NCBI GenBank assembly: GCA_029210805.1
Contig: JARGGA010000005.1
Location: 1 to 32,797 of the forward strand
DNA length: 32,797 nt
Origin: Candidatus Thorarchaeota archaeon
GTDB taxonomy: Archaea > Asgardarchaeota > Thorarchaeia > Thorarchaeales > Thorarchaeaceae
Reading direction: 5' to 3'
Shown here: positions 5,169-31,996 of the stretch, one piece after another
Layout of the letters: each line of letters begins with the position of its first letter
Numbering within the stretch: the stretch's first letter is position 1
The notes under the pieces: model-generated
The model's input: the letters and a program-made list of their open reading frames with translations, nothing else
Told to the model about the DNA's origin: nothing
Databases searched by the model: none
Made by a program: the position numbers and the translations under genes

Positions 5169-6569
5169 GTGCGAAGAATGGCCCCGGATAAAAAAGCGCG
5201 CACCCGAAAGTTGCTACAGCTGATGTTTCAGGAGTATTACCGAACAAATCATGATAAGATTGACATACCTGATAAAATTCAGAACCGTGAGTTTGGTCTG
5301 GAAAACTGGGATTTCTCATGGGTGTGCAAGAAACGTATAGAGACTCTAGATGATGGAACAGACGTTCAAAGAGGCTGTGGAAAAAACGGAAGGTCGTTCT
5401 CAAATCTTCACATTTGCCCTCATTGCGGTGCCCAGGGGTTACAGACAACAAGATGGTCGCGTCACATTGGTTTTCGATCGCGAGATAATCTATTGGGTGA
5501 ATTGGCTAGATCCGTGCCTCACAGTGTATATCATTCGGCTGCATTTTATAGAGTGCCGGTAGCTCGTTCAATGATAGAAAAGGAGTGGAATGGTGCTGAA
5601 CTCGTGTTTGATATCGATGCTGACCATCTGGACATACCCTGTGCAAACAAACATGACGCTTGGCAATGCGGAAATACTGAATGTAACCAGGCAGGAAAAG
5701 GAAAAGCACCAGAAAATTGTCCGAGTTGTAATGGCGTATCGTTTAGAAGTCTCAAATGGATTTGTGATGATTGTCTGAATGCGGCAAGAGAGAACACAAT
5801 AAAACTGTACGACAAGTTTCTTGTGAAACACTTCGGGATTGATCCTGAATATATTCAGTTGAATTATAGTGGCCACCGGGGATACCATATACGAGTACGA
5901 GACCCAAGTGTCTTCGATTTGAGCTCAAATGGTAGAATGGAAATTGCTCACTACTTGACAGGTATGGGACTGAATAGCACAATCTCATCAGACGGTCTTC
6001 TTAGAATTGTTCCTACTGGTGAACTAAGAAACTGGCAACTTCCTGCGATTGCCAGAAAGCTTGCAGATGCCATGATTGAGTTCATTGATTCTATTGAATT
6101 GTATAAAGGAGATGAGCCATGGCTTAAGCGAATTTCAGTTCATAAGCAAGATGCAATTGAGGGACTGAGGAAAAATCCACCTATCCTTAGTGCAAAAGTA
6201 AAAGGGGTGGGTCCAAAATACTGGCAAGAGATAGCGAATAAAGCTGCAATGTTATACAGTGTAGATATTGATCAACCTGTTACAACTGATATTCATAGGG
6301 TGATTAGATTGATTGGAAGCTTAAATGGTAAGACTGGATTTACAGTCAATGAAATTACGCGTGAGGCACTTTCCAATTTTGATCCTTTCGGTGATGCTGT
6401 TGTTTTTGACGAAGGTTCTCTGAAGGTAACAATTCCTCAGAGAAGTATTGATGTCCCAGAGTTCAGAATTGCAGATTCTACTTATGGGCCATTCAATGAT
6501 ACCGTTGTGGATCTACCTAAGGCGGCAGCAGTCTTTCTATTATGTAAGGGGATGGCAAATGTTGAGTGA
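5169..6569 (+). CDS. priS: DNA primase small subunit PriS with additional Cys clusters
   Basis: ELVFDIDADHLD catalytic motif and LNYSGHRGYHIRV motif; alternative ATG start at 5178. Confidence 0.92.
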   Translation: MRRMAPDKKARTRKLLQLMFQEYYRTNHDKIDIPDKIQNREFGLENWDFSWVCKKRIETLDDGTDVQRGCGKNGRSFSNLHICPHCGAQGLQTTRWSRHIGFRSRDNLLGELARSVPHSVYHSAAFYRVPVARSMIEKEWNGAELVFDIDADHLDIPCANKHDAWQCGNTECNQAGKGKAPENCPSCNGVSFRSLKWICDDCLNAARENTIKLYDKFLVKHFGIDPEYIQLNYSGHRGYHIRVRDPSVFDLSSNGRMEIAHYLTGMGLNSTISSDGLLRIVPTGELRNWQLPAIARKLADAMIEFIDSIELYKGDEPWLKRISVHKQDAIEGLRKNPPILSAKVKGVGPKYWQEIANKAAMLYSVDIDQPVTTDIHRVIRLIGSLNGKTGFTVNEITREALSNFDPFGDAVVFDEGSLKVTIPQRSIDVPEFRIADSTYGPFNDTVVDLPKAAAVFLLCKGMANVE

Positions 6570-7182
6570 TATTTCATATGACACGATTAGCAAAGCATGG
6601 GAAAACGAGAAGGATAGTAAAAATCTCCAAGATTTCGAAGACCTTCGCCTAAGTAAAATGGTATCCTATCTATCGTCAATTCGACAGCAATTGGCTGAAA
6701 TGCCATCGGATAACGCCATTCAGGTAGATTTGCTAACTCAAGAAGGGCTCAACATAGAGTATATGCTTCGCGACCTCCTAATGCTCAGACGCACTAAAAT
6801 AATGAACTTGGTTCTACAAAATGAAACACCTAAGGCATCAATGACTTTGGCCGAGGAAGAGTTCCACAATCGTATGCAAAGGGGAATTTCAAGTCATACT
6901 GAATTCATTGATGAAGTGATTGCAGGGTCTCCTGTACCAACAATGAAACGAACAGGTAAATCAGAGAAGCCATCTCGGCCAGAAAAAGAAGTCGAGGATG
7001 ATTCTGAAGAGATGGAATATGTGATGGTGAGATTTTTGAGAGCCGTTGAAGAATCTTTCATGGGATTGGATGAAACAGTGTACGGCCCCTTTCAGGAAGA
7101 AGATGTTGCAACGATTCCTACTGCAAACGCTAAGGTATGGCTGAGAGATGGAACAGTTGCACGAGTAGCTCCTACAAAATAA
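6559..7182 (+). CDS. GINS complex subunit, Gins51/Gins15-like
   Basis: ATG at 6559 overlaps the priS stop. Helical A-domain followed by C-terminal B-domain-like VRFLRAVEESFMGLDETVYGPFQEEDVATIPTANAKVWLRDGTVARV; adjacent to priS. Confidence 0.8.
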   Translation: MLSDISYDTISKAWENEKDSKNLQDFEDLRLSKMVSYLSSIRQQLAEMPSDNAIQVDLLTQEGLNIEYMLRDLLMLRRTKIMNLVLQNETPKASMTLAEEEFHNRMQRGISSHTEFIDEVIAGSPVPTMKRTGKSEKPSRPEKEVEDDSEEMEYVMVRFLRAVEESFMGLDETVYGPFQEEDVATIPTANAKVWLRDGTVARVAPTK

Positions 7183-7195
7183 GAGGTTGAATAGA

Positions 7196-7480
7196 ATGGA
7201 TGAGCATATTCAATCGCGTGTGAGTACCATACGAAGCTTAGTTCAAAGGGATAGCAGAAACTCCGAAGAATCGTTTGAAAAGCTCCTTGTGGCACTTGCA
7301 GGTGTTTTTCGTTTGTTGGATGGAAAACAGTCAACGTTGGTTGCTCTACAGGGTTCATCAACAGAAGTTCAGGGGTATATACTAAAACTACTTGGGCAGA
7401 TAAGACAGCAGATAAACGATAGCTATGATTGCCTGATTGAAGAATTAGATAAACTTGCAGAGCGGATGGAGAAGATTTAA
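7196..7480 (+). CDS. small helical hypothetical protein
   Basis: ORF following GINS by about 13 bp (alternative TTG at 7187); coiled-coil-like composition. Confidence 0.6.
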   Translation: MDEHIQSRVSTIRSLVQRDSRNSEESFEKLLVALAGVFRLLDGKQSTLVALQGSSTEVQGYILKLLGQIRQQINDSYDCLIEELDKLAERMEKI

Positions 7481-7509
7481 GATTCCAAGAAATAGAAAGC
7501 TCTAAGTGG

Positions 7510-7722
7510 ATGCTATCTAACCTGATTCGTATGACAGCGGAACGAGAGTGGATTCTCTACATTGCAGGAATTGTATCTGTTGCAATCGCTCTTGTTAGTA
7601 ATTTTATGTATCCCCTTAACGAAATGGGAATATTGTATATCTTAGCCTTCGATGCTACTATAATTTTTGGAGTTTTTTGCATTCTGCTACTCATTCAGAA
7701 GAGAGCTCTTGAAGACTGGTAG
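7510..7722 (+). CDS. small membrane protein, two predicted TM segments
   Basis: 70-aa ORF with hydrophobic stretches WILYIAGIVSVAIALVSNFMY and IFGVFCILLLI. Confidence 0.5.
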   Translation: MLSNLIRMTAEREWILYIAGIVSVAIALVSNFMYPLNEMGILYILAFDATIIFGVFCILLLIQKRALEDW

Positions 7723-7859
7723 CATAATGTCTGCTTCTGCATAACTTAATTTCTAAATAATTGTAAGAGTTCTCAGAAACATAGTATCTTCAAAAATATT
7801 CATAGAAACTGACTAGCACAAGAAGGAGCAAATTCGCATGACTCACCTCAAGATAGGGC

Positions 7860-10800
7860 TTATGACTCTCCGAGCTCCTCAATGACTTCTTCGAGTTCGC
7901 TTTCCAATACTTCATCCAGATTTGCGATGCGCTCTTTCATCTCTTTTACTTCTGCTTCAATCAGATTTCTAATCTCCTCAATGGAGTATACCGATATACT
8001 CTCTACAGCATCATATAGAAAGACTCCATCAGCTACCTTTTCTCCCTGTTCATCCCTTACTATCCACTTTAAACAATCGTATTCCTCATACACCCTCAAC
8101 TGCAAGGGTCCAGTTCCGTCCTCATCTTGTGGATCATCGCACGAATTAGATAGGCCGAAGGAATCAAGTGCTTCCTTGAATTGTCTGTTAGCATCTTCTT
8201 CATTAATGATATTGAAACACGAACTCCACTCATGACTAAACAAATCACTGAATCCCTCTTCGACCTTCTCTCTTGTATCGGTCTTATCAATATCAAAAGA
8301 TTCCCTTCTTATCTCTAGACTCCTTATGTCACTATCTAGACTGAGTATGACAGAATATTGTGAGTCTGTATATTCAATTGTTACTTCGCAGGGCGGACTG
8401 GTCACTCCAAATCCGTCAGCCTCGAGAATTTTAGTCAGTCTTTTCTCAGCTTCTTGTAGGTTATTGATCTCATCAAGAGTGATTCCAACGCGCTCCAGAA
8501 TAAGGGTCAGAATTCGTCCTTTCTCCTCTTTCAGGTCATTGGTAAAATCAAATTCATAGGTGGTGTAGAATGGATGAAAGGGTTTCCCTGTTGCAGTTGA
8601 GATAGCATACCATCCAACCTCTCTCTTACCACTTGTAATAGATACAACCCATTCTTCCTCCTCAGCTCGAAGATAGGACCCTGGTGGGACCGAAGAGAGA
8701 ACATGGTCAAACTCTCTAAGAAGGAGTCTGATCCATTTCTCCTCTTGAAAGACCATGCACTCAGGAGTATCTGCTTTGTGACTGAACGATACCTCAAGTT
8801 TGTAGAGTTTTCCACTCCATATGCATCTTGGTGCAAGAAGGCCATGTATCTCTCTTCCTGTCTTGTACCCATCTAGCTGTCGCTCCAATCTCTTTGGAGC
8901 GTCTGCTGGGAGTTTGATATACCAACACGCACCATGTTCGTCCTCTTTCCCAAGGGCAATCGGACAAACAGACTCATCATGCTCAATCTCTACTGTGAGT
9001 TCCTCAGCATCCTCGAAGAATTGAGAAACCCTACTAGGGAGTTCCTCTGGAGTTGCCCTGGTTGCGCTAAAGATGATATATGGTCTGAGAAAGTCAAGAT
9101 TTGAGTACTTAATATCATCAAATACATTCCATGTCACATACTCGCCTGCATCTGTGTACATTGGCCCCGCATGAATCATAGGCCACCTGAGGAGTCTTAG
9201 CAGGTCTGGAACTGACTCATGTTCAACCTCCTGAAGTATGTCACCATCTTTGTCAACAAAGGCCACCCTGCAGACATCTTCTTCTCTCTCTAGCAGCACA
9301 CTAATGGAGATTGGAGAGGTTACTGAATTTAGGTAGCGCCTCAGAGCATCTGAAACACGTTGATAGAATTCCTCTGGGAGTCTGAAGTCTAATGGAGGTT
9401 CAGTAATGGATTGGGCTTCAGTTAGTTTGATGCCTTGTAGTTGACTGACTGAGGAATATCCTTTGCGTATCACTTCAAGCAGTCCTCCAAACTCTCTGTC
9501 ATCGTTATCAGGGTCTATGAACCATACCTCAAGTCCCTGTTCGGTTTCCCTACATGCAATAATGACTTGCTTGTATCCAAGAATATCATCTAATGTCTGT
9601 TGTACGAGAATCTCTTGTTTGGTTTCAGCCCAATATTCATCTTCTTTAGAAGGTCTGTTCGAAAAACAGCCCACCAACATCCTTGAACTTTTCTTTGGAT
9701 CTTGAAGGACCGTCCACCGATGAGTGCCAGTTTCTCCCGATTGGAACTCGATGCCTAGCACCCATTCAGATTCAAGTTTTTCTTCAATGACAGAGGCGTC
9801 TGAGATCAGTTCAGGAGCTTCACTTCTCTGTCTTGGTCTAGTCTGTAGTTTCAATGGCGAACGATAGAGACGTTGTGAATTGATCCTTCCAAGTGTCATG
9901 GCAACGTAAGCCTTACCGGACCTAATGTCTGGCTGTCGAAATCGTAAGAGGGCGAGTGTACTGGGTCCTATACTTGGAGGATTATCAGTGGTTTCCACAG
10001 AAACGATAACGTCCTCTGGACTACCCTTGAACTCCTGTATCAGTTCATCATACTGCTCTTCAAGGGTCTTACTTAGTTCGCCCAGAAACTTGTTCTTAGG
10101 ATTGAGCCTAACAATATATGGGATGAGTGTGAGAGCCAGAAGTTTCATCCTCTCACGAAGGTCTTTTTCAGGAAAGGCATTCTTTTCAGTCCTCTCTCTG
10201 TATACTAGACCACTTCCCTGATTCTTGAAGCGTTTTGACCATCCCTGTAGTGATGGAATAGACTCGAATCTTATGTCTACTTTCTCACGAGTATGTGTGA
10301 CAATCAATCGAATATCATCATATATTGGAGTATCACCAATACTTGGCAATGTCCATTTCTCAGGTTCAACTGCACTCCTTGGAGGGGAAGGTAGATTCCA
10401 GACTACCTCAGTCGTGTACTCTGCTAGTGACGAGGAAGAGTAGTATGGTAGTAAAGCTCTGGTCGCATACGGTATCGATTTCTCAGCAGAGGGAACTGGT
10501 GAGTCAAACCACAGGACAGTGGTATCATCTTCATCAGGAAGACTTGCCAGTAGTCTATCCAGAATAATCTGGAGTTGGTTTCTATGGGTTTCTGGAGTGG
10601 CATTCTTGAGTACGTCAATTCCGGATACAACGATAACTAATGGCCTGTCAGGCTCTTTCTCGATATCAAAGGTTGGTTCAAGACCATCATCATATAGATG
10701 GGAGAGAATGCTATTGAGATGAGCCTTGACCTCTATCTGTTCAAAGAAGTTACGAATGTGATCATAGTGTGCCTTTACCTCTTCTTCTGGAGTGCACCTC

Positions 10801-17618: not shown

Positions 17619-19784
17619 ATGGCAGATATTGAAAAATCACCAGTTCTCTTATGCACATGTGGCAAACAACTTAATCTAGATTACGAATTTCTCTCATCCG
17701 AGTTAGGGAAAGTCGCAATGGCATCTTCCGTCACAGTTCAAGATACATGTTGTCAAGATGACGGACTGGAGAAGATTGCAGAACTCCTGAGTAAGAGTAA
17801 TGGTCGTCTTGTTCTTGGTGCTTGTACAAATCAGAAAATTCAGCCAAGAATTGACCAATACATGAAACAAAAGGGTATAGATCCCTCTAGAATTCGGTAT
17901 ATCAACATCCGTGAACACTCTGCGTGGGTGCATCCGGACAAGCAAGAAGCGTCCGAAAAGTCCCTTGATATGCTCCGTGGCGGGCTTGCTTCGGCAGGCA
18001 TCTCAAATCCGCTGACAGTTGAAGAAAAAGAAGTAGCAAAACATGTGACTGTTGTAGGTGGCGGAATAGCTGGAATAGAAACTGCATTGAGTTTGGATAA
18101 CCTAGGCTACAGTGTAACCCTCATAGAACTCGAAGAAAAACTGGGTGGTCATGTTGTAAATCTCCCAGTGATTGCACCGACTGGCAGGTCAGGTATTGAA
18201 GTATTGAAAGGCAGACTTGAAGCACTTGAGAAGAGTAAGAATATCACAGTCATGACTCAGACTCAAGTCAAGTATTTCCAGGGTGAAATGGGCAACTTCA
18301 CTGTAAACTACGTGACTAATGATGAAAATGAGGGCGAGTTACGGACATCTGCTGTTGTGATGGCTACTGGATTTAAAGAATTCAAACCATTCGCAATGGA
18401 AGAATATCGCTATGGAAAGAATCCTGATGTCTTGACACAATATGAGCTCTCCACCATGCTTTCTGGAGGGGCTCTCAAGAGACCCTATAATGATGGGGAT
18501 GTAAAAGAGGTCGTAATGGTTCAATGTGTGGGAAGCAGGTCTGAGGATTACAAGAGAGACTGTAGCAAGCTTTGTTGTACATTTGCAATAGATAATGCAC
18601 TCGAACTTCTTGAAAGGGACCCAAGTATCAATGTGAGAATCGTCTACATGGATATTCGAGTACCCTTTGAGAATGAGATGATCTACAAAGAGTCACGTGA
18701 AAAAGGTGTAGATTACATCCGTGGACGCATTAGTATGGTCTGGGAAAAGGATGGACAGACCTATGTCAAAATCTATGATTCTCTCTTGAATCAGTACTTT
18801 GAAGTCGCTGCAGATCTGGTCGTTCTTTCTGCAGCAATTCTTCCCTCTGATGGACTATCAGAACTATCGGAAACTCTAGGGTATGCTCTGCAAGAGGATG
18901 GTCATATCAAAGAACTCTATGGAAAACTTCGAAGAAATGAAACTCGTCGACGTGGTGTTGTTGCGGTTGGCGCTGTAACTAGACCACAATTCGTCTTCGA
19001 AGCAGTAACTGATGCTCAAGCTGCAGCCTTGGTATTACACAATGAGCTGCAAGGAGGCAAAATCCAGTCAATTGCCCGTGGTGCTGTTCTGAACGTAGAT
19101 GACTGTGTTGGTTGTAGTCTGTGTGCACAACAATGTCCACGTGGAGTGCCCCTCATGATTGAGCAGACAGAGGAAGAGGAGCTAGATGAAGACCAGAAAT
19201 TTATCTTCAAAGCAGCCATTGACACTCTAAATTGTCATGCTTGTGGTGTATGTCAGAGCCTGTGTCCCTCTGGTGCAACACAATTGAACTTCTTGAGCAA
19301 CGACCAACTTTGGTCTGAAATTGAAGCAACATTGGAAAAGGCTGAAGGAACCAAACCAACGACTCTGTGTTTCTACTGCGAAGAATGCGCAGTTTCCACC
19401 ATAGATATTGCAGGGGCTCGGAAAATGGAATACCCTGCAAGCACACGGTTGATTCCAGTCCCCTGTGCAGGGCGTGTTAGCATAATTGATATTCTGAAAG
19501 CATTTGAAAATGGTGCAGGATCTGTCATGATTGCTGCTTGTGAGAAGGATAGGTGCCATGTTGGTGGAACGGGTAATGAAATAGCACAGGTGCAGGTGGA
19601 TGTTGCCCGAGATATCCTGAATGCCATTGGATGGAAGGGTGAAAGAGTCGATATGTTCAGGATGTTTAGTGCAGAACCTGAACGCTTTACCAATGCGATT
19701 AATGAGATGGTAAAACGGGCTGTTGAATTTGGTCCAACGCCGGTGCATCAAGGAACCGCTGGATTGTGGGAGGCAGAGAAATGA
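17619..19784 (+). CDS. hdrA: HdrA-like subunit with ferredoxin motifs and C-terminal MvhD/FlpD-like domain (721 aa)
   Basis: HVTVVGGGIAGIETALSL; CVGCSLCAQQCP and CHACGVCQSLCP; C-terminal CFYCEECAVSTIDIAG...VPCAGRVSIIDILKAFENGAGSVMIAACEKDRCHVGGTGNE. Confidence 0.88.
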   Translation: MADIEKSPVLLCTCGKQLNLDYEFLSSELGKVAMASSVTVQDTCCQDDGLEKIAELLSKSNGRLVLGACTNQKIQPRIDQYMKQKGIDPSRIRYINIREHSAWVHPDKQEASEKSLDMLRGGLASAGISNPLTVEEKEVAKHVTVVGGGIAGIETALSLDNLGYSVTLIELEEKLGGHVVNLPVIAPTGRSGIEVLKGRLEALEKSKNITVMTQTQVKYFQGEMGNFTVNYVTNDENEGELRTSAVVMATGFKEFKPFAMEEYRYGKNPDVLTQYELSTMLSGGALKRPYNDGDVKEVVMVQCVGSRSEDYKRDCSKLCCTFAIDNALELLERDPSINVRIVYMDIRVPFENEMIYKESREKGVDYIRGRISMVWEKDGQTYVKIYDSLLNQYFEVAADLVVLSAAILPSDGLSELSETLGYALQEDGHIKELYGKLRRNETRRRGVVAVGAVTRPQFVFEAVTDAQAAALVLHNELQGGKIQSIARGAVLNVDDCVGCSLCAQQCPRGVPLMIEQTEEEELDEDQKFIFKAAIDTLNCHACGVCQSLCPSGATQLNFLSNDQLWSEIEATLEKAEGTKPTTLCFYCEECAVSTIDIAGARKMEYPASTRLIPVPCAGRVSIIDILKAFENGAGSVMIAACEKDRCHVGGTGNEIAQVQVDVARDILNAIGWKGERVDMFRMFSAEPERFTNAINEMVKRAVEFGPTPVHQGTAGLWEAEK

Positions 19785-19849
19785 GTGGCGATATAGTTGC
19801 AAAGGCGAGTGAAGTAAGTGTCTGCGATTCCAACCCTGGTGTTCTATGA
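19781..19849 (+). CDS. 22-aa ATGA-overlapping ORF at the end of hdrA (MSGDIVAKASEVSVCDSNPGVL); possible remnant of a truncated downstream gene
   Basis: ATGA start/stop overlap typical of translational coupling; very short. Confidence 0.3.
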   Translation: MSGDIVAKASEVSVCDSNPGVL

Positions 19850-19970
19850 TGTTAAACGGATTGGAAGAACTGATAATAGAAACACTGCTAGAACACGTAA
19901 AACAGGTCTTTGGTTGCCCCTTGCTTTGGCACATTCAAGGTGATAGTCCGATAGAACATAAAAAAGGACA

Positions 19971-20059
19971 TGGCCTCGGGGGCGAGATTTGAGCTCGCGT
20001 GAGGTACTGCCTCAACTTGGTCATAAGATGAGTGCCATAGACCTCTGGGCGTCCAGTCT
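19971..20059 (-). pseudogene. class-II (Ser/Leu-type) tRNA-like sequence, probably a decayed tRNA
   Basis: Minus strand: T-arm GCGAG-CTCAAAT-CTCGC, 3' acceptor CCCCGAG, discriminator G, CCA, variable arm TGAGG-CAGTA-CCTCA (20000-20014), D-arm GCC..A..GG..A..GGC. The 5' acceptor strand (AGACTGG) and anticodon stem (CTCAT/CCAAG) do not pair. Confidence 0.55.
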
Positions 20060-20070
20060 TCGCTTTTTTC

Positions 20071-21642
20071 TCAGTCCGAATCGTCCTTAATAATCTGTTT
20101 CAGGATTTTTGAAATTGCATCCCATTCTAGATTTGTTTTCTTCATGAGCGTGTGTACGGCCTTGTGACAAGATTGGCATAGCGCTACCCATTCATCAGGA
20201 TTCAGTGATTCTAGGTTCTCTTTGGTCCATAGAAGGCTACGATGGTGAGGTTTTCCATCCTTCTTATGGATGAGTTCCTTTTCGAAATCACATATATTAC
20301 AGCTGGTACCAAAGATGCTCTCTCGCAATTCATCAATACTTAGACCATCAAATTCCCTAGGCTCCCACCCCATCTTCCGGAGAACTCTACGAATTGGATG
20401 GTGGGTTTTGAATCCGAAATATTGTCCAATTTCATTCAAAGACATCTTCTCATCATAATATAATCTGAATACCACATCGGGGTCCAATTCTCTCTTGGGG
20501 TCCCAACCTTCTTCTTTGAAGATACGACCAATTGTTCTTGGTGAGCAATCTAATTGTTCAGAGATCTCTTCCATTGTCCACTTTTCATCAAAGAATAAAC
20601 TGTATACCTCTTCGCGGTTTATTCCCTTCCCTTTGGGGCGAGTTTCCCACCCCTCTTGTCTGAAAATGCGTCGTAGTGAATTCCCATTCTTCAATCCTAA
20701 ATGGTCTGCTACTTCTTGTAGCGTGAGTTCTTTATCAAAATATAATCTATATACTTCCTCAGAATCGATTTCCTTTTGAGGAACTGAATGGGGACGAGAA
20801 GTCCACATCTCTTCAATAAATATGCGACGAATTGGAGCTATCGAGCACCCAATAAGGTCAGCTATCTTTTGCATTGATAAATTCTCATCGAAATAGAGAT
20901 TGTACACTTCCTCTCTATCTATTTCCTGTTTTAGAGAGCGGACTTCCCAATCTTGGTTCTTGAAAGCTTGTCGTATAGAGAAACTAGATTTGAAACCAAA
21001 GTGATTAGCAATTTCATTCATTGACTTTCCTTCTTCATAATATAATCTGTGTGCATCCTGTAGTGGTACATCTTTGATATCCGAGCGGAACTGCCAACCA
21101 TTTACTTTGAACAGTCGGTTAATTGGGCTTCTAGAGATTCCCAGTTTTTTTGCAATTTCATATGATGATAGACGCTCATCAAAATATAATCTATGAATCT
21201 CTTCTGAATCCAGCTCTATTTTTGGGTGAGAACTCGGTCTTGCTTCCCAACCGTTGATTTTGAAAATGCGCCGAATTGGATTCTTTGTTCTAAAACCAAA
21301 ATGCGCAGCTATCGCTTTCATTGATTTGTTCTTGTCAAAGTATAGACTTCGTACTTCTTGAGTGTCAATCTCCTTTGCTGCTGTTCGAGTGTTCGTGGTT
21401 TCAACATCTATCTCTTGTTCAAACACCTTGTATTTTTCGAATCTCCAACCATGTTCATCAAACAATTCTTGGATTCGTTCTTTATCTGCGAACTTCTTAG
21501 CAATATCCCCCAGAAACAAAGATTCCTTATCGTAGATACTATCTCCTTTCTCCTTTTCCGAGCTTGACCACCGATACCACCTACCCACACGCAAACCGAT
21601 TCCCAAGTGGCGTAGCCCCACATTGTAGTGGGGGCAAGTCAT
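20071..21642 (-). CDS. tandem helix-turn-helix array protein with C-terminal HNH nuclease domain (523 aa)
   Basis: Seven clear ~45-51-aa repeats of type EEVYxLYFDExLSMxEIAxxxGxxxxxIRRIFKxxGWExR plus a degenerate N-terminal one; C-terminal CNIC-x14-HHR...NPDEWVALCQSCHKAVH HNH signature. Exact start uncertain. Confidence 0.8.
   Translation of the reverse strand: MTCPHYNVGLRHLGIGLRVGRWYRWSSSEKEKGDSIYDKESLFLGDIAKKFADKERIQELFDEHGWRFEKYKVFEQEIDVETTNTRTAAKEIDTQEVRSLYFDKNKSMKAIAAHFGFRTKNPIRRIFKINGWEARPSSHPKIELDSEEIHRLYFDERLSSYEIAKKLGISRSPINRLFKVNGWQFRSDIKDVPLQDAHRLYYEEGKSMNEIANHFGFKSSFSIRQAFKNQDWEVRSLKQEIDREEVYNLYFDENLSMQKIADLIGCSIAPIRRIFIEEMWTSRPHSVPQKEIDSEEVYRLYFDKELTLQEVADHLGLKNGNSLRRIFRQEGWETRPKGKGINREEVYSLFFDEKWTMEEISEQLDCSPRTIGRIFKEEGWDPKRELDPDVVFRLYYDEKMSLNEIGQYFGFKTHHPIRRVLRKMGWEPREFDGLSIDELRESIFGTSCNICDFEKELIHKKDGKPHHRSLLWTKENLESLNPDEWVALCQSCHKAVHTLMKKTNLEWDAISKILKQIIKDDSD
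21616..21633. repeat. hairpin CCCCAC-attgta-GTGGGG at 5' end of the HTH-array/HNH ORF
   Basis: 6-bp perfect inverted repeat in the region encoding the annotated N-terminus. Confidence 0.5.
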
Positions 21643-22083
21643 TTTCCCACTATAAGAATTCTTGGTTTGAAGTGGGTAGCTTTACTAATCAAATCTATTC
21701 CTTGTTTTCAACAACTCGTTACGAGAATCTTGAAATCTGAAAGAAGCGCAAGTCACAATAGCTCAATGTCCTATTCCACTCATCCACCTATTCTCTTGAA
21801 GCATGACCTGACAACAACACTGAGTATACCTCTTGAAAGGCTCATCTCATCCTGAAGTCCTGTGGGAGTCGTAGAGCATATCCTCAGTGTGGGCAGCGTC
21901 TGATGCAATCACACTCCTCTTTCTCAACTTAAACTTCTAAGATGTGCATTGACGAAAGAATAGGTGGCAGATTCGTGGGAATCGTGGTAGGAGGGGGGAG
22001 TTTGTGTAATGAGGGCATGTTACAAAACTAGCCCACGTATCCGCCAAGTATTCATGTACGGACCTTCTATTTAACATCATTCC

Positions 22084-22224
22084 TCAAGAATCTTCAAGAA
22101 CATAACCATGTCCGGTTTCTCTAGCGATTTCATTTTCTTTCAGACAATCTGCTCTTTTCGTGCTTCCCCATATGGCTCTCGAAGATTCAATAGGATAACC
22201 GTCTTCGTCATATGTATCAGCCAC
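22084..22224 (-). pseudogene. short coding-like remnant or GTG-start 46-aa ORF (MADTYDEDGYPIESSRAIWGSTKRADCLKENEIARETGHGYVLEDS)
   Basis: Protein-like composition; an in-frame stop lies shortly upstream; no ATG. Confidence 0.25.
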
Positions 22225-22442
22225 AACTATCTTGAAAAATAGATGAGCAATCTAACTACATTGCCAGAAAAGCAAAAGAAGATGCAAAGGTCTCGTCGAG
22301 GAAAAGAAAATAATCCCTTTTCCTGACAGATTATGTCATTCTCAGACAGGTTTATTATTATCTAATCGACGACTACCTCATTGTGGTCAAAGTGAAGAGT
22401 GCACATGTCCCAATCTCATTGATGATGAAAGGAGGCAGCTAA

Positions 22443-24713
22443 ATGACTAGCAGACCCAAGACATCGATTTCCTTTGTTTTCGGAAAGAGACAACGTATGA
22501 TGGATATGATGTTGGTACTTGGTGGACTCAAAGAGGAAGCTGCTGTTCCCCTTAGCAAAGTAAATGAAGAAATTTCGAAATTAAAACAGGAGATTGAACC
22601 CCTCACAGCAGAGATTCTTGAATTTCCAGAGAGATACTTCCAAGCATTCTTTGATACTGCAAAGAAAGCAGGTCTTGGAAATTCACTCTCCGATAGAGGT
22701 GTTCTTACTGAATCTATAGGAAACCTTGAGTCTGCACTTTCGAATGGAGATTCATCAGCGTTAACGGGCCTACTTGAAGTTCTGAAGACTCGCCTTGATT
22801 CTATGTCAGAGAAAGAAGATGCTTCCCAAGATAGTTCAGTGGGAGATGTATCTGCAATTCTAAAACCAGTAGTGGGCCTAATTTCTAATATTCAAGCAAG
22901 TATAAACAGCTTTGAGGAGAAGGCAAAAGCAGACGAAGAAGAAGCAATGAAAGAATTAGAGTCACTAACAGATTCCTTTGCCTCATTGACTTTGGACCTA
23001 AATTCAGACCCAGATGCCTCATTGGCAGAACTACAGAAGTTGGGAACCAACACCCGATATGGTCCATTTCTTCGAATAGCAGCACAGCTAAAAAGAGGAA
23101 AAAGGGATGGGAGAATAGATGATGCCCGTTTCGGGGACTTGATTCGTACAAATCTTCTTCTGGAACTTCGTCGTGGTATCATCATGTTTGTGCTGGGAAA
23201 AATGGGATCTAAAACAGCTGTGCAATTAGGTGAATCTATGGGAATATCTCCTAAGGATGTACAGAATGCCATTGTTAGCATGATTGGCAGAGGCGAAGTG
23301 GAGATGGTCGGACTTGATGGCGATGCTCCTGTCTTTGCGCAAGTTCTTACCAAAACACCAGACACAACACTTGTTGTGAAACGTATCGTTCAGCAGCTTC
23401 GGGGTATCGTAAAGACCCTAGATGAGTCCAGTAAATCGACCGTCCAAGAACCTCTGGAGCAACTTGAGGGTGTTCTTGAGCGACTTCAGTTATTGGGAGC
23501 ATATGATGAACCTGCTCTCTCTGAGCCAATAACAAATCTCCGAGAAGTTGTCGAAAAGGCTACAGAAGCGGCTATAGGTTCAGGATCTTCTGAAGACTCG
23601 AAGGAACTTCGTCTTCTGGTATCAGCAGGTCTTGAAGCCTTTACAAGATTCAGATTGAAAATCACACTTGAGAAAGGACCCAACTTGGTTTCTGGTCTCA
23701 ATGTCTACGGAGAGCAGCTCGATCCAGAGAAATACAAACAGATTATGGACAATTATCTAGATAGCGAGCTTGAGAGAGGCACACTGCTCATTCTAATCAG
23801 GGAAATTGGAGCAATGACTGCAAAGGATCTTGCTGAAAAGTCTAGGATTCCGCAAGATAGGATTTTACAACACCTGCTACGGATGAAGCGCGATGAATTG
23901 CTGACAATTGCTGGCGAAGACCATGGGTATGTTCTATATGATGTTCCTAGAACACTGAATGAAGCGGAAATTGCAATTCAGACTGCCTGCAATCTGGCAT
24001 CTTTGACTGCCCAAGCCAAGACCGAGCTTCAAGAAATTCTCTCCGATCTTAGGCCTGATACAATTGGCAGACTTACAGGCGCCCTTGAAATCTTCTCTAG
24101 GTCACGTGATAAGATGGAAACAATCACGATAGATGGAACAGTAGTTGGTAATGACATTCTATCTAGCGTGGAAGAAACAATCAAGTCATCAGTTTCAATG
24201 GGCTATCGTACTCGAGCGCGACTCCCAAGCACACGACCCAAAGTCACTATCGATGACCTGCTGGATGTTGATGTCCCATCAGTACTGGAGGAATATCGAG
24301 GTATGATGGGATATGCTCCACTCCTTGGATTTGGTACGATTGAATGGGATTACGCAAAGTGTGTTGGGTGCAAGTCATGTGAAATTGCATGTCCGGAGGA
24401 TGCTATCGAGCTTAAACCGGTTATCGACATACCCAAGTTCTTTGAATTGACAAACGAGGAGATTGAAAAACAACTTGTGAACAAAGGAATGTTCTACAAG
24501 ACTGTAAGGTCTCTTGCCACAACCAAACCAACTTCTCAAATCAAACTTGGTGAAGAAAAACCAGGGTTTGGAACAGTTGAAGTCGATCTCTGGCTCTGTG
24601 TTGGATGCAGAACTTGTGTAAGACGTTGTCCAGGAACAGAGGGAGGCGCATTGGAACTGGACCTCAAGTGGAACCTTCCGGAAGTTGTCAGGCATCTCGT
24701 TTCGCCGAACTAA
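22443..24713 (+). CDS. winged-helix-like / dicluster ferredoxin fusion protein (756 aa)
   Basis: Two related HTH-like segments (RRGIIMFVLGKMGSKTAVQLGESMGISPKDVQNAIVSMIGRGEVEMV; ERGTLLILIREIGAMTAKDLAEKSRIPQDRILQHLLRMKRDELLTI) and C-terminal CVGCKSCEIACP and CVGCRTCVRRCP. RBS GGAGG before the ATG. Confidence 0.8.
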   Translation: MTSRPKTSISFVFGKRQRMMDMMLVLGGLKEEAAVPLSKVNEEISKLKQEIEPLTAEILEFPERYFQAFFDTAKKAGLGNSLSDRGVLTESIGNLESALSNGDSSALTGLLEVLKTRLDSMSEKEDASQDSSVGDVSAILKPVVGLISNIQASINSFEEKAKADEEEAMKELESLTDSFASLTLDLNSDPDASLAELQKLGTNTRYGPFLRIAAQLKRGKRDGRIDDARFGDLIRTNLLLELRRGIIMFVLGKMGSKTAVQLGESMGISPKDVQNAIVSMIGRGEVEMVGLDGDAPVFAQVLTKTPDTTLVVKRIVQQLRGIVKTLDESSKSTVQEPLEQLEGVLERLQLLGAYDEPALSEPITNLREVVEKATEAAIGSGSSEDSKELRLLVSAGLEAFTRFRLKITLEKGPNLVSGLNVYGEQLDPEKYKQIMDNYLDSELERGTLLILIREIGAMTAKDLAEKSRIPQDRILQHLLRMKRDELLTIAGEDHGYVLYDVPRTLNEAEIAIQTACNLASLTAQAKTELQEILSDLRPDTIGRLTGALEIFSRSRDKMETITIDGTVVGNDILSSVEETIKSSVSMGYRTRARLPSTRPKVTIDDLLDVDVPSVLEEYRGMMGYAPLLGFGTIEWDYAKCVGCKSCEIACPEDAIELKPVIDIPKFFELTNEEIEKQLVNKGMFYKTVRSLATTKPTSQIKLGEEKPGFGTVEVDLWLCVGCRTCVRRCPGTEGGALELDLKWNLPEVVRHLVSPN

Positions 24714-27446: not shown

Positions 27447-27594
27447 GCCGAGGTAGCCAAGCCCGGATTACGGCGCCGGTCTTGAAAATCGGAGTGTTCT
27501 ACACTCCTAGACCAGGTCAACCGGTATCTTCGGATGCATGAGTTCAAGGGCTTTGACATTTCGTCAAGTCGAACACATCTCATCCTCGGCGCCA
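27447..27594 (+). tRNA. tRNA-Ser(UGA) containing two introns (27487-27518 and about 27548-27576), CCA encoded
   Basis: Acceptor GCCGAGG/CCTCGGC, G73, CCA; D-arm GCC/GGC with GG; anticodon stem CCGGT/ACCGG, loop CTTGAA|A; variable arm TATC-TTCG-GATG; T-stem ATGAG/CTCAT. Removing both insertions gives 87 nt. Confidence 0.9.
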
Positions 27595-31830: not shown

Positions 31831-31856
31831 CATGATTGACTCCCGAAAGTTCTTGA

Positions 31857-31971
31857 TGGCGGCCATAGGTTCCAGGATTTACCTGATCTCGGCTGAACTC
31901 AGAAGTCAAGTCTGGAATCGTTGACGGAAATGTGCGCTGCGCGAGCGCGTGACAAGCCGTTAAGCTGCCAC
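31857..31971 (+). rRNA. rrf: 5S ribosomal RNA
   Basis: Terminal helix TGGCGGC/GCTGCCA; internal CTGATCTCGGCTGAACTCAGAAGTCAAG and archaeal-like loop/helix architecture; pyrimidine-rich tract after the end. Confidence 0.85.
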
Positions 31972-31996
31972 TTTCTTCTTCTTTCATTATCGATTG

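Follow-up and report, generated by a model that had tools for sequence, protein, structure and literature searches.

Tandem helix-turn-helix proteins with an HNH-type domain in Thorarchaeota are probably selfish cutters of conserved genes and could account for intron gain by archaeal tRNA genes

Free-standing homing endonucleases, which spread by intronless or collaborative homing, are recognized by a gene that lies beside a conserved target, a patchy spread, empty alleles, and a target that is displaced or altered. The described proteins nearest in kind to those reported here are phage HNH endonucleases bearing helix-turn-helix (HTH) modules (phrog_8446, phrog_7545 and phrog_8048), many of which are of the free-standing homing type. 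In archaea, BHB introns of rRNA genes, such as the 16S introns of Thermoproteales, hold LAGLIDADG endonuclease ORFs inside the intron, while the CRISPR-repeat-binding protein Cbp1 is made of tandem HTHs and, to our knowledge, has no nuclease domain. The frequent interruption of archaeal tRNA genes is an old open question, and it has been suggested by Randau and Soll, as their proposal is cited in PMC3293823, that introns shield these genes from mobile elements. Sugahara et al. 2012 (PMC3293823) remarked that direct evidence of a link between introns and mobile elements had been lacking until their single Caldiarchaeum locus, where tRNA-Thr(GGU) has a displaced 5' half, a new intron at 24/25 and an insert of ~1.9 kb carrying one ORF of DNA-binding/recombination type with paralogues, the insertion being attributed to a pNOB8-type integrating element and to integrase action. 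No description of a family of HTH-array HNH proteins in Thorarchaeota was found in the literature searched.

The locus described here lies in a stretch of 32,797 nucleotides from a Candidatus Thorarchaeota genome (contig JARGGA010000005.1), referred to as the window, in which the following features were recognized:

19806..22484, no strand assigned: insertion of about 2.7 kb by comparison with two same-genus genomes, which disrupts the first ~14 codons of the gene that now starts at 22443
19971..20056, minus strand: decayed class II (Ser-like) tRNA 3' fragment, from about the anticodon loop to CCA, directly after the nuclease stop
20071..21642, minus strand: tandem-HTH plus HNH-type protein of 523 aa (ORF, HTH models, AlphaFold model, family)
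20092..20343, minus strand: HNH-type domain, residues 434-517, with invariant C448, C451, H459, H466, C489 and H493 (alignment, PHROGs, model, Foldseek)
20353..20484, minus strand: HTH repeat 7, residues 387-430 (this and repeats 6 to 1 from the AlphaFold model and repeat HMM)
20494..20619, minus strand: HTH repeat 6, residues 342-383
20635..20766, minus strand: HTH repeat 5, residues 293-336
20791..20919, minus strand: HTH repeat 4, residues 242-284
20935..21066, minus strand: HTH repeat 3, residues 193-236
21082..21210, minus strand: HTH repeat 2, residues 145-187
21232..21366, minus strand: HTH repeat 1, residues 93-137
21442..21534, minus strand: degenerate N-terminal HTH repeat, weak, residues about 37-67 (repeat HMM; low model confidence)

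The ORF is real and begins with ATG. HTH profiles of many families match its repeats (Sigma70_r4 at 7e-22, HTH_38 at 6e-18), the ~45-51-aa tandem repeats are detectable in the DNA sequence as well, and in an AlphaFold2 model residues 94-423 form seven trihelical units with a pLDDT of about 90, which bears out the earlier proposal that the repeats are HTH folds. Seven repeats and a degenerate eighth had been counted in the preliminary description; the seven are recovered by both a repeat HMM and the model, whereas the eighth is plausible only, because its HMM match is weak and the model there is of low confidence (pLDDT mostly below 65). Sequence searches of solved structures with the protein gave nothing useful.

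The C-terminal ~85 aa are modelled as a compact domain of beta strands, Cys pairs and a CH..H helix (residues 436-522, pLDDT 90-97), that is, with the beta-beta-alpha metal fold, zinc Cys pairs and CH..H helix of the HNH superfamily. Its family motif is CxxC...H[RK]KDGxxH...LCxxCHxxxH, and across 41 aligned copies G445 is invariant along with the six Cys and His residues listed above, H497 being nearly so. HNH families of PHROGs match 34 of these 41 copies, while the Pfam HNH model gives weak matches to 19 (best E 0.004, below its cut-off); Foldseek matches of the model include Cas5-HNH and Cas8-HNH (type I-E HNH), with weak E-values. The assignment to an HNH-type domain thus holds on profile and fold, but the 'HHR' that had been read as a conserved pair does not, the invariant histidines being H459, within IHKKDG, and H466. 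In nearly all copies H459 is followed by K or R, in the context I/V/L-H-K/R, and the classical adjacent His-His or Asp-His catalytic pair is absent from the alignment of 41 copies; because this pair is missing, activity is argued from conservation. The C-terminal residues are kept by homologues while the array varies, and the domain probably cuts DNA.

This domain was found in 16 of 47 genomes of one family-level group of Thorarchaeota, including the genome of the window, with a patchy distribution and many copies in some genomes; when 228 genomes of the phylum were searched with a profile, a single weak extra match fell outside that group. All named relatives from a scan of 84,980 species with one narrow pattern are Candidatus Thorarchaeota, and a viral origin was rejected, since viral contigs held no relatives with the patterns used. 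Three more members (L037, L038, L039) occur in the window's own genome. The genomes are drafts, but one relative is encoded on a complete chromosome (CP070658, L059/L159), which shows that the family does not arise from misassembly. Homologues with different repeat counts had been called for as a check, and by the repeat HMM members carry between 1 and 8 HTH modules, so that the array is not invariant; they also carry one or two HNH copies, the first and second copies forming separate clades with the exception of one Thr pair. Comparison of 119 repeats places the most variable columns in the third (recognition) helix, as had been anticipated, with scaffold positions conserved; DNA specificity may be encoded by the array. 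This natural series of 1-8 modules also offers material for studying DNA reading by HTH arrays.

Several known systems resemble this family in part. The 211-aa phrog_8446, annotated 'HNH endonuclease', has a match of 4.7e-40 to the window protein that lies in the HTH repeats, with residues 242-342 as the best stretch, and one of 2.5e-34 across both HTH and HNH parts to L067, a relative in which the HTHs are joined to an ordinary HNH domain, while phrog_8048 and others match the HNH domain. Unlike these phage proteins, the Thorarchaeota family has longer and variable arrays, often two HNH domains, cellular archaeal hosts and an association with intron-bearing tRNA genes. Like the LAGLIDADG systems of rRNA introns, it pairs a nuclease gene with a conserved RNA gene that has introns of the BHB type, but here the ORF lies beside a tRNA and the nuclease fold is HNH-type. 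The Cbp1 model NF040595 matches residues 198-278 of the window protein at 49.1 bits, far below its curated cut-off of 140. TALE nucleases are comparable in logic only, having a repeat array joined to a nuclease domain, with most variation in the putative base-reading helix in our case; their fold is unrelated to HTH arrays, and a repeat-to-base code of the family described here is hypothetical.

The window nuclease gene lies on an insertion that breaks an hdr-linked gene, and the empty site is present in two same-genus genomes. In both of these, the hdrA-type gene (17619-19784 in the window) is directly followed by the gene that in the window starts at 22443, whereas in the window about nine codons of the broken gene remain after hdrA, followed by ~2.7 kb, after which the gene resumes with a new start. 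The tRNA fragment on this insert has a paired T-arm and CCA, gives a BLAST match to a tRNA library at E 5e-4 and shares 20-nt matches with T-arms of its own genome's tRNAs; neither ARAGORN nor Rfam recognizes it, and its identification therefore depends on pairing, the BLAST match and reading. Its first reading as Ser(GGA) was abandoned, and the isotype being uncertain, the label Ser-like is used. A complete or permuted tRNA in the insert was likewise rejected, no matching 5' half being seen. The window copy belongs to a single-HNH branch, in which none of six members adjoins an intact tRNA, three lie just upstream of rpsB and one lies beside rpoA2.

A different context is found for members with two HNH domains. 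By strict criteria a tRNA lies no more than 320 bp from 18 of the 22, whereas placements drawn at random within these loci come as close in 5.3% of cases (p about 7e-20 if every copy counts as independent, a value that overstates independence because several copies are orthologous). The remaining four (L055, L059, L065 and L068) also have tRNAs, as judged from BLAST and reading, which the strict rule misses because of introns. Relatives with only one or two HTHs adjoin tRNA genes equally well, a point to be set against the earlier suggestion that each repeat contacts a few base pairs and the array thereby defines a long site. The isotypes include Ser(TGA), Ser(CGA), Leu, Val, Thr, Ala(GGC) and Asp, and the protein clade tends to track tRNA type (Ser(TGA) in L049, L052, L053, L057 and L068; Thr in L038 and L046). 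The adjoining tRNAs read here carry introns, many of them non-canonical (T-loop, D-arm, variable arm); they were read by hand, ARAGORN isotypes often being wrong (Ala(GGC), for example, is called Glu). An ORF housed inside a giant tRNA intron was considered and rejected, since the ORFs adjoin intact tRNAs rather than lying between the exons of one tRNA.

Partial tRNA copies lie across many of the ORFs or nearby. The 3' pieces start in or at the T-loop in eight of ten cases (L045, L050, L053, L054, L057, L058/L060, L065, L068), the other two (L063 and the window fragment) being longer. At L063, a 1637-bp cassette containing the ORF and an intron-bearing tRNA-Ser(CGA) in opposite orientation is bounded by the two halves of an intronless tRNA-Ser(CGA), and when the halves are rejoined ARAGORN calls tRNA-Ser(CGA); similarly, at L051 the ORF and an intron-bearing Val tRNA in inverted orientation lie between two parts of a Val tRNA. 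In L061 the break (a 5' half) is in the anticodon loop and in L046 it is near position 28, the intact tRNA having its intron in the same region. Overall, the intron of the adjoining tRNA is at the break in L046, L054, L058/L060, L061, L065 and L068 and elsewhere in L053, L057, L050 and L045; this match is not universal, because L053 and L057 break in the T-loop but have the intron in the anticodon loop.

These observations fit, with fair likelihood, a homing-type selfish and free-standing endonuclease, in which the HTH array would address a conserved host gene, the HNH-type domain would cut it and repair from the donor would spread the nuclease gene together with a resistant target. The array would position the HNH domain on the host gene, cleavage being deduced from conservation, and the cut would be repaired from donor DNA in such a way that the nuclease gene is copied along with a cleavage-resistant version of the target. 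In the tRNA branch with two HNH domains, the break would fall mostly in the T-loop, at TTC|RAAT in the internal B box, and the two domains in one chain could cut both strands. The element would bring either a complete tRNA or the half needed to rebuild one, interrupted by an intron that presumably confers resistance, and would leave the old tRNA as displaced halves, in effect acting as a natural cleave-and-rescue element. Compared with known free-standing homing, the target here is mostly a tRNA gene, of which the old copy stays behind in pieces while a replacement with an interruption accompanies the nuclease gene. The window copy would have entered the hdr-linked operon together with a tRNA 3' remnant, its target being surmised. 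Counting against the homing reading are the missing adjacent catalytic pair, the lack of intact tRNAs beside the single-HNH branch together with the decayed state of the window fragment, the Ser(TGA) anticodon intron in about half of the ORF-less genomes, the introns of L053 and L057 that lie away from the break, and a site in the hdr operon that matches no known target sequence. The comparison with homing systems made in the preliminary description suits the genomic context, with insertion beside conserved genes, broken tRNA targets and patchy spread.

It could instead be argued that the family belongs to site-specific, integrase-like elements that insert at tRNA 3' ends through att-like sites, as pNOB8 and SSV do, with the HTH-HNH protein as recombinase or cargo. 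At L053, L057, L065 and L068 the order is intact tRNA, ORF, displaced 3' end, as in att-site integration, and the similar Caldiarchaeum locus was put down to integrase action by Sugahara et al. 2012 (PMC3293823); that case is a single locus, its ORF was not identified as HTH-HNH, and it is likened to ours by its published description only. A domain-profile search found no integrase domain in the 523-aa protein, however, and elements of the tyrosine-integrase (SSV/pNOB8) type restore the tRNA in its original orientation, whereas the intact tRNA of L063 and of L051 lies in reverse orientation between the old halves, an outcome that attP x attB integration does not yield. The cassette moreover consists of a single gene plus a tRNA, and other branches lie at protein-coding genes, so integration of this kind is considered unlikely.

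Present/absent polymorphism with empty alleles in relatives, as expected of homing, was observed at the window site and at the Ser(TGA) and Ala(GGC) loci. G016 lacks the ORF at the Ser(TGA) locus, where its flanks run unbroken through the tRNA, while G032 has there the ORF and a displaced tRNA end; within genus g6, the ORF-less G026 and G046 have an intronless Ser(TGA), and the ORF-bearing G038 and G007 have introns. The pair of anticodon and T-arm introns in Ala(GGC) is present in all three ORF-bearing genomes and in 0 of the ORF-less genomes listed. The spread between lineages is independent of the flanks, as is the case for homing endonucleases: between G032 and G038, which belong to different genera, the flanks are about 60% identical, whereas the region from the tRNA 3' half to the ORF end is mostly 75-100% identical, identity being close to 100% in the first HNH and less in the HTH region. 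The Ala cassettes of G038 and G007 are 70-100% identical (mostly above 82%), but the upstream flank in G038 is unrelated. A dN/dS of 0.22-0.44 in four pairs indicates purifying selection on the protein; the value for L053/L049 (3.5) was left out, as it rests on 15 changes.

This mobility also bears on the suggestion that the protein is a transcriptional regulator of tRNA and ribosomal genes, whose HTH array and zinc domain would control the neighbouring gene without cutting. Its tandem HTHs do resemble the AraC, DeoR and Cbp1 regulators by profile and fold, the neighbours are highly expressed genes and the catalytic pair is incomplete; nonetheless, ORFs that are patchy, multi-copy and recently moved between genera, that are surrounded by broken tRNA halves, and most copies of which match HNH models, with L067 having an ordinary HNH domain, make a regulator quite improbable. 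Least credible, and in our view very improbable, is a toxin or defence nuclease that cuts tRNA as RNA with the adjoining intron-bearing copy immune, since, although a nuclease-like domain beside tRNAs and neighbours that could be resistant substrates would agree with it, tandem HTHs indicate DNA rather than RNA, the spliced tRNA would be the same in both cases, neither a defence-island context nor a partner gene was noticed, and other branches adjoin rpsB, rplB and rpoA2.

If the family does consist of homing-type selfish endonucleases, as we favour, the intron would plausibly serve as immunity against cutting. A broader and more tentative proposal, for which the case is rather evenly poised, is that T-loop/B-box cutters accompanied by intron-bearing resistant tRNAs drive both intron gain and the scattering of tRNA halves in Thorarchaeota, with sister branches hitting ribosomal-protein and RNA-polymerase genes in the same manner; rpsB, rpoA2 and rpl2 are universally conserved and would therefore suit a selfish nuclease that depends on finding its target in each host. 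The anticodon intron of Ser(TGA) is also present in about half of the ORF-less genomes, so introns outlast or precede the ORF. The relatives of the window protein are probably selfish cutters of conserved genes and could account for intron gain by archaeal tRNA genes, and the shielding idea becomes testable now that there is a candidate agent, for which sequenced genomes show broken targets, empty alleles and polymorphic introns.

Further observations were made on other ORFs of these loci. Three proteins (L047 8489-10732, L048 111-2513 and L062 3447-5828) combine three HTHs with a C-terminal domain of another kind, ~560 aa long; two of the three sit just upstream of rpl2, L047 lying between rpl23 and rpl2 (gene names read from translations). 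By eye this domain has LAGLIDADG-like motifs ('GLGLSDGH', 'LWPEDGCF'), but that assignment is no more than a guess, the model having a pLDDT of 32 and no library giving a match. Upstream of some single-HNH and HTH-fusion genes there are large ORFs with a similar start (L040 3812-6523, L062 752-3478, L041 3283-6099), one of which has a HerA/TraG-like ATPase domain, and which possibly point to a larger mobile element. Upstream of rpoA2, L037 has a 1314-aa ORF (6465-10406, plus strand) without a Pfam match, whose N-terminal 'REIREND..LTxEERD' is common to some family members.

As regards tRNA-Ser(TGA), introns of its anticodon loop and T-loop are present in some and missing from other closely related genomes among 30 of Thorarchaeota (L165-L194), a set that provides ready data for intron gain and loss. 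The window itself contains a tRNA-Ser(TGA) gene with two introns, in the anticodon loop and the T-loop (27447-27592, plus strand), which the default mode of ARAGORN misses, and a 5S rRNA gene (31855-31973, plus strand).
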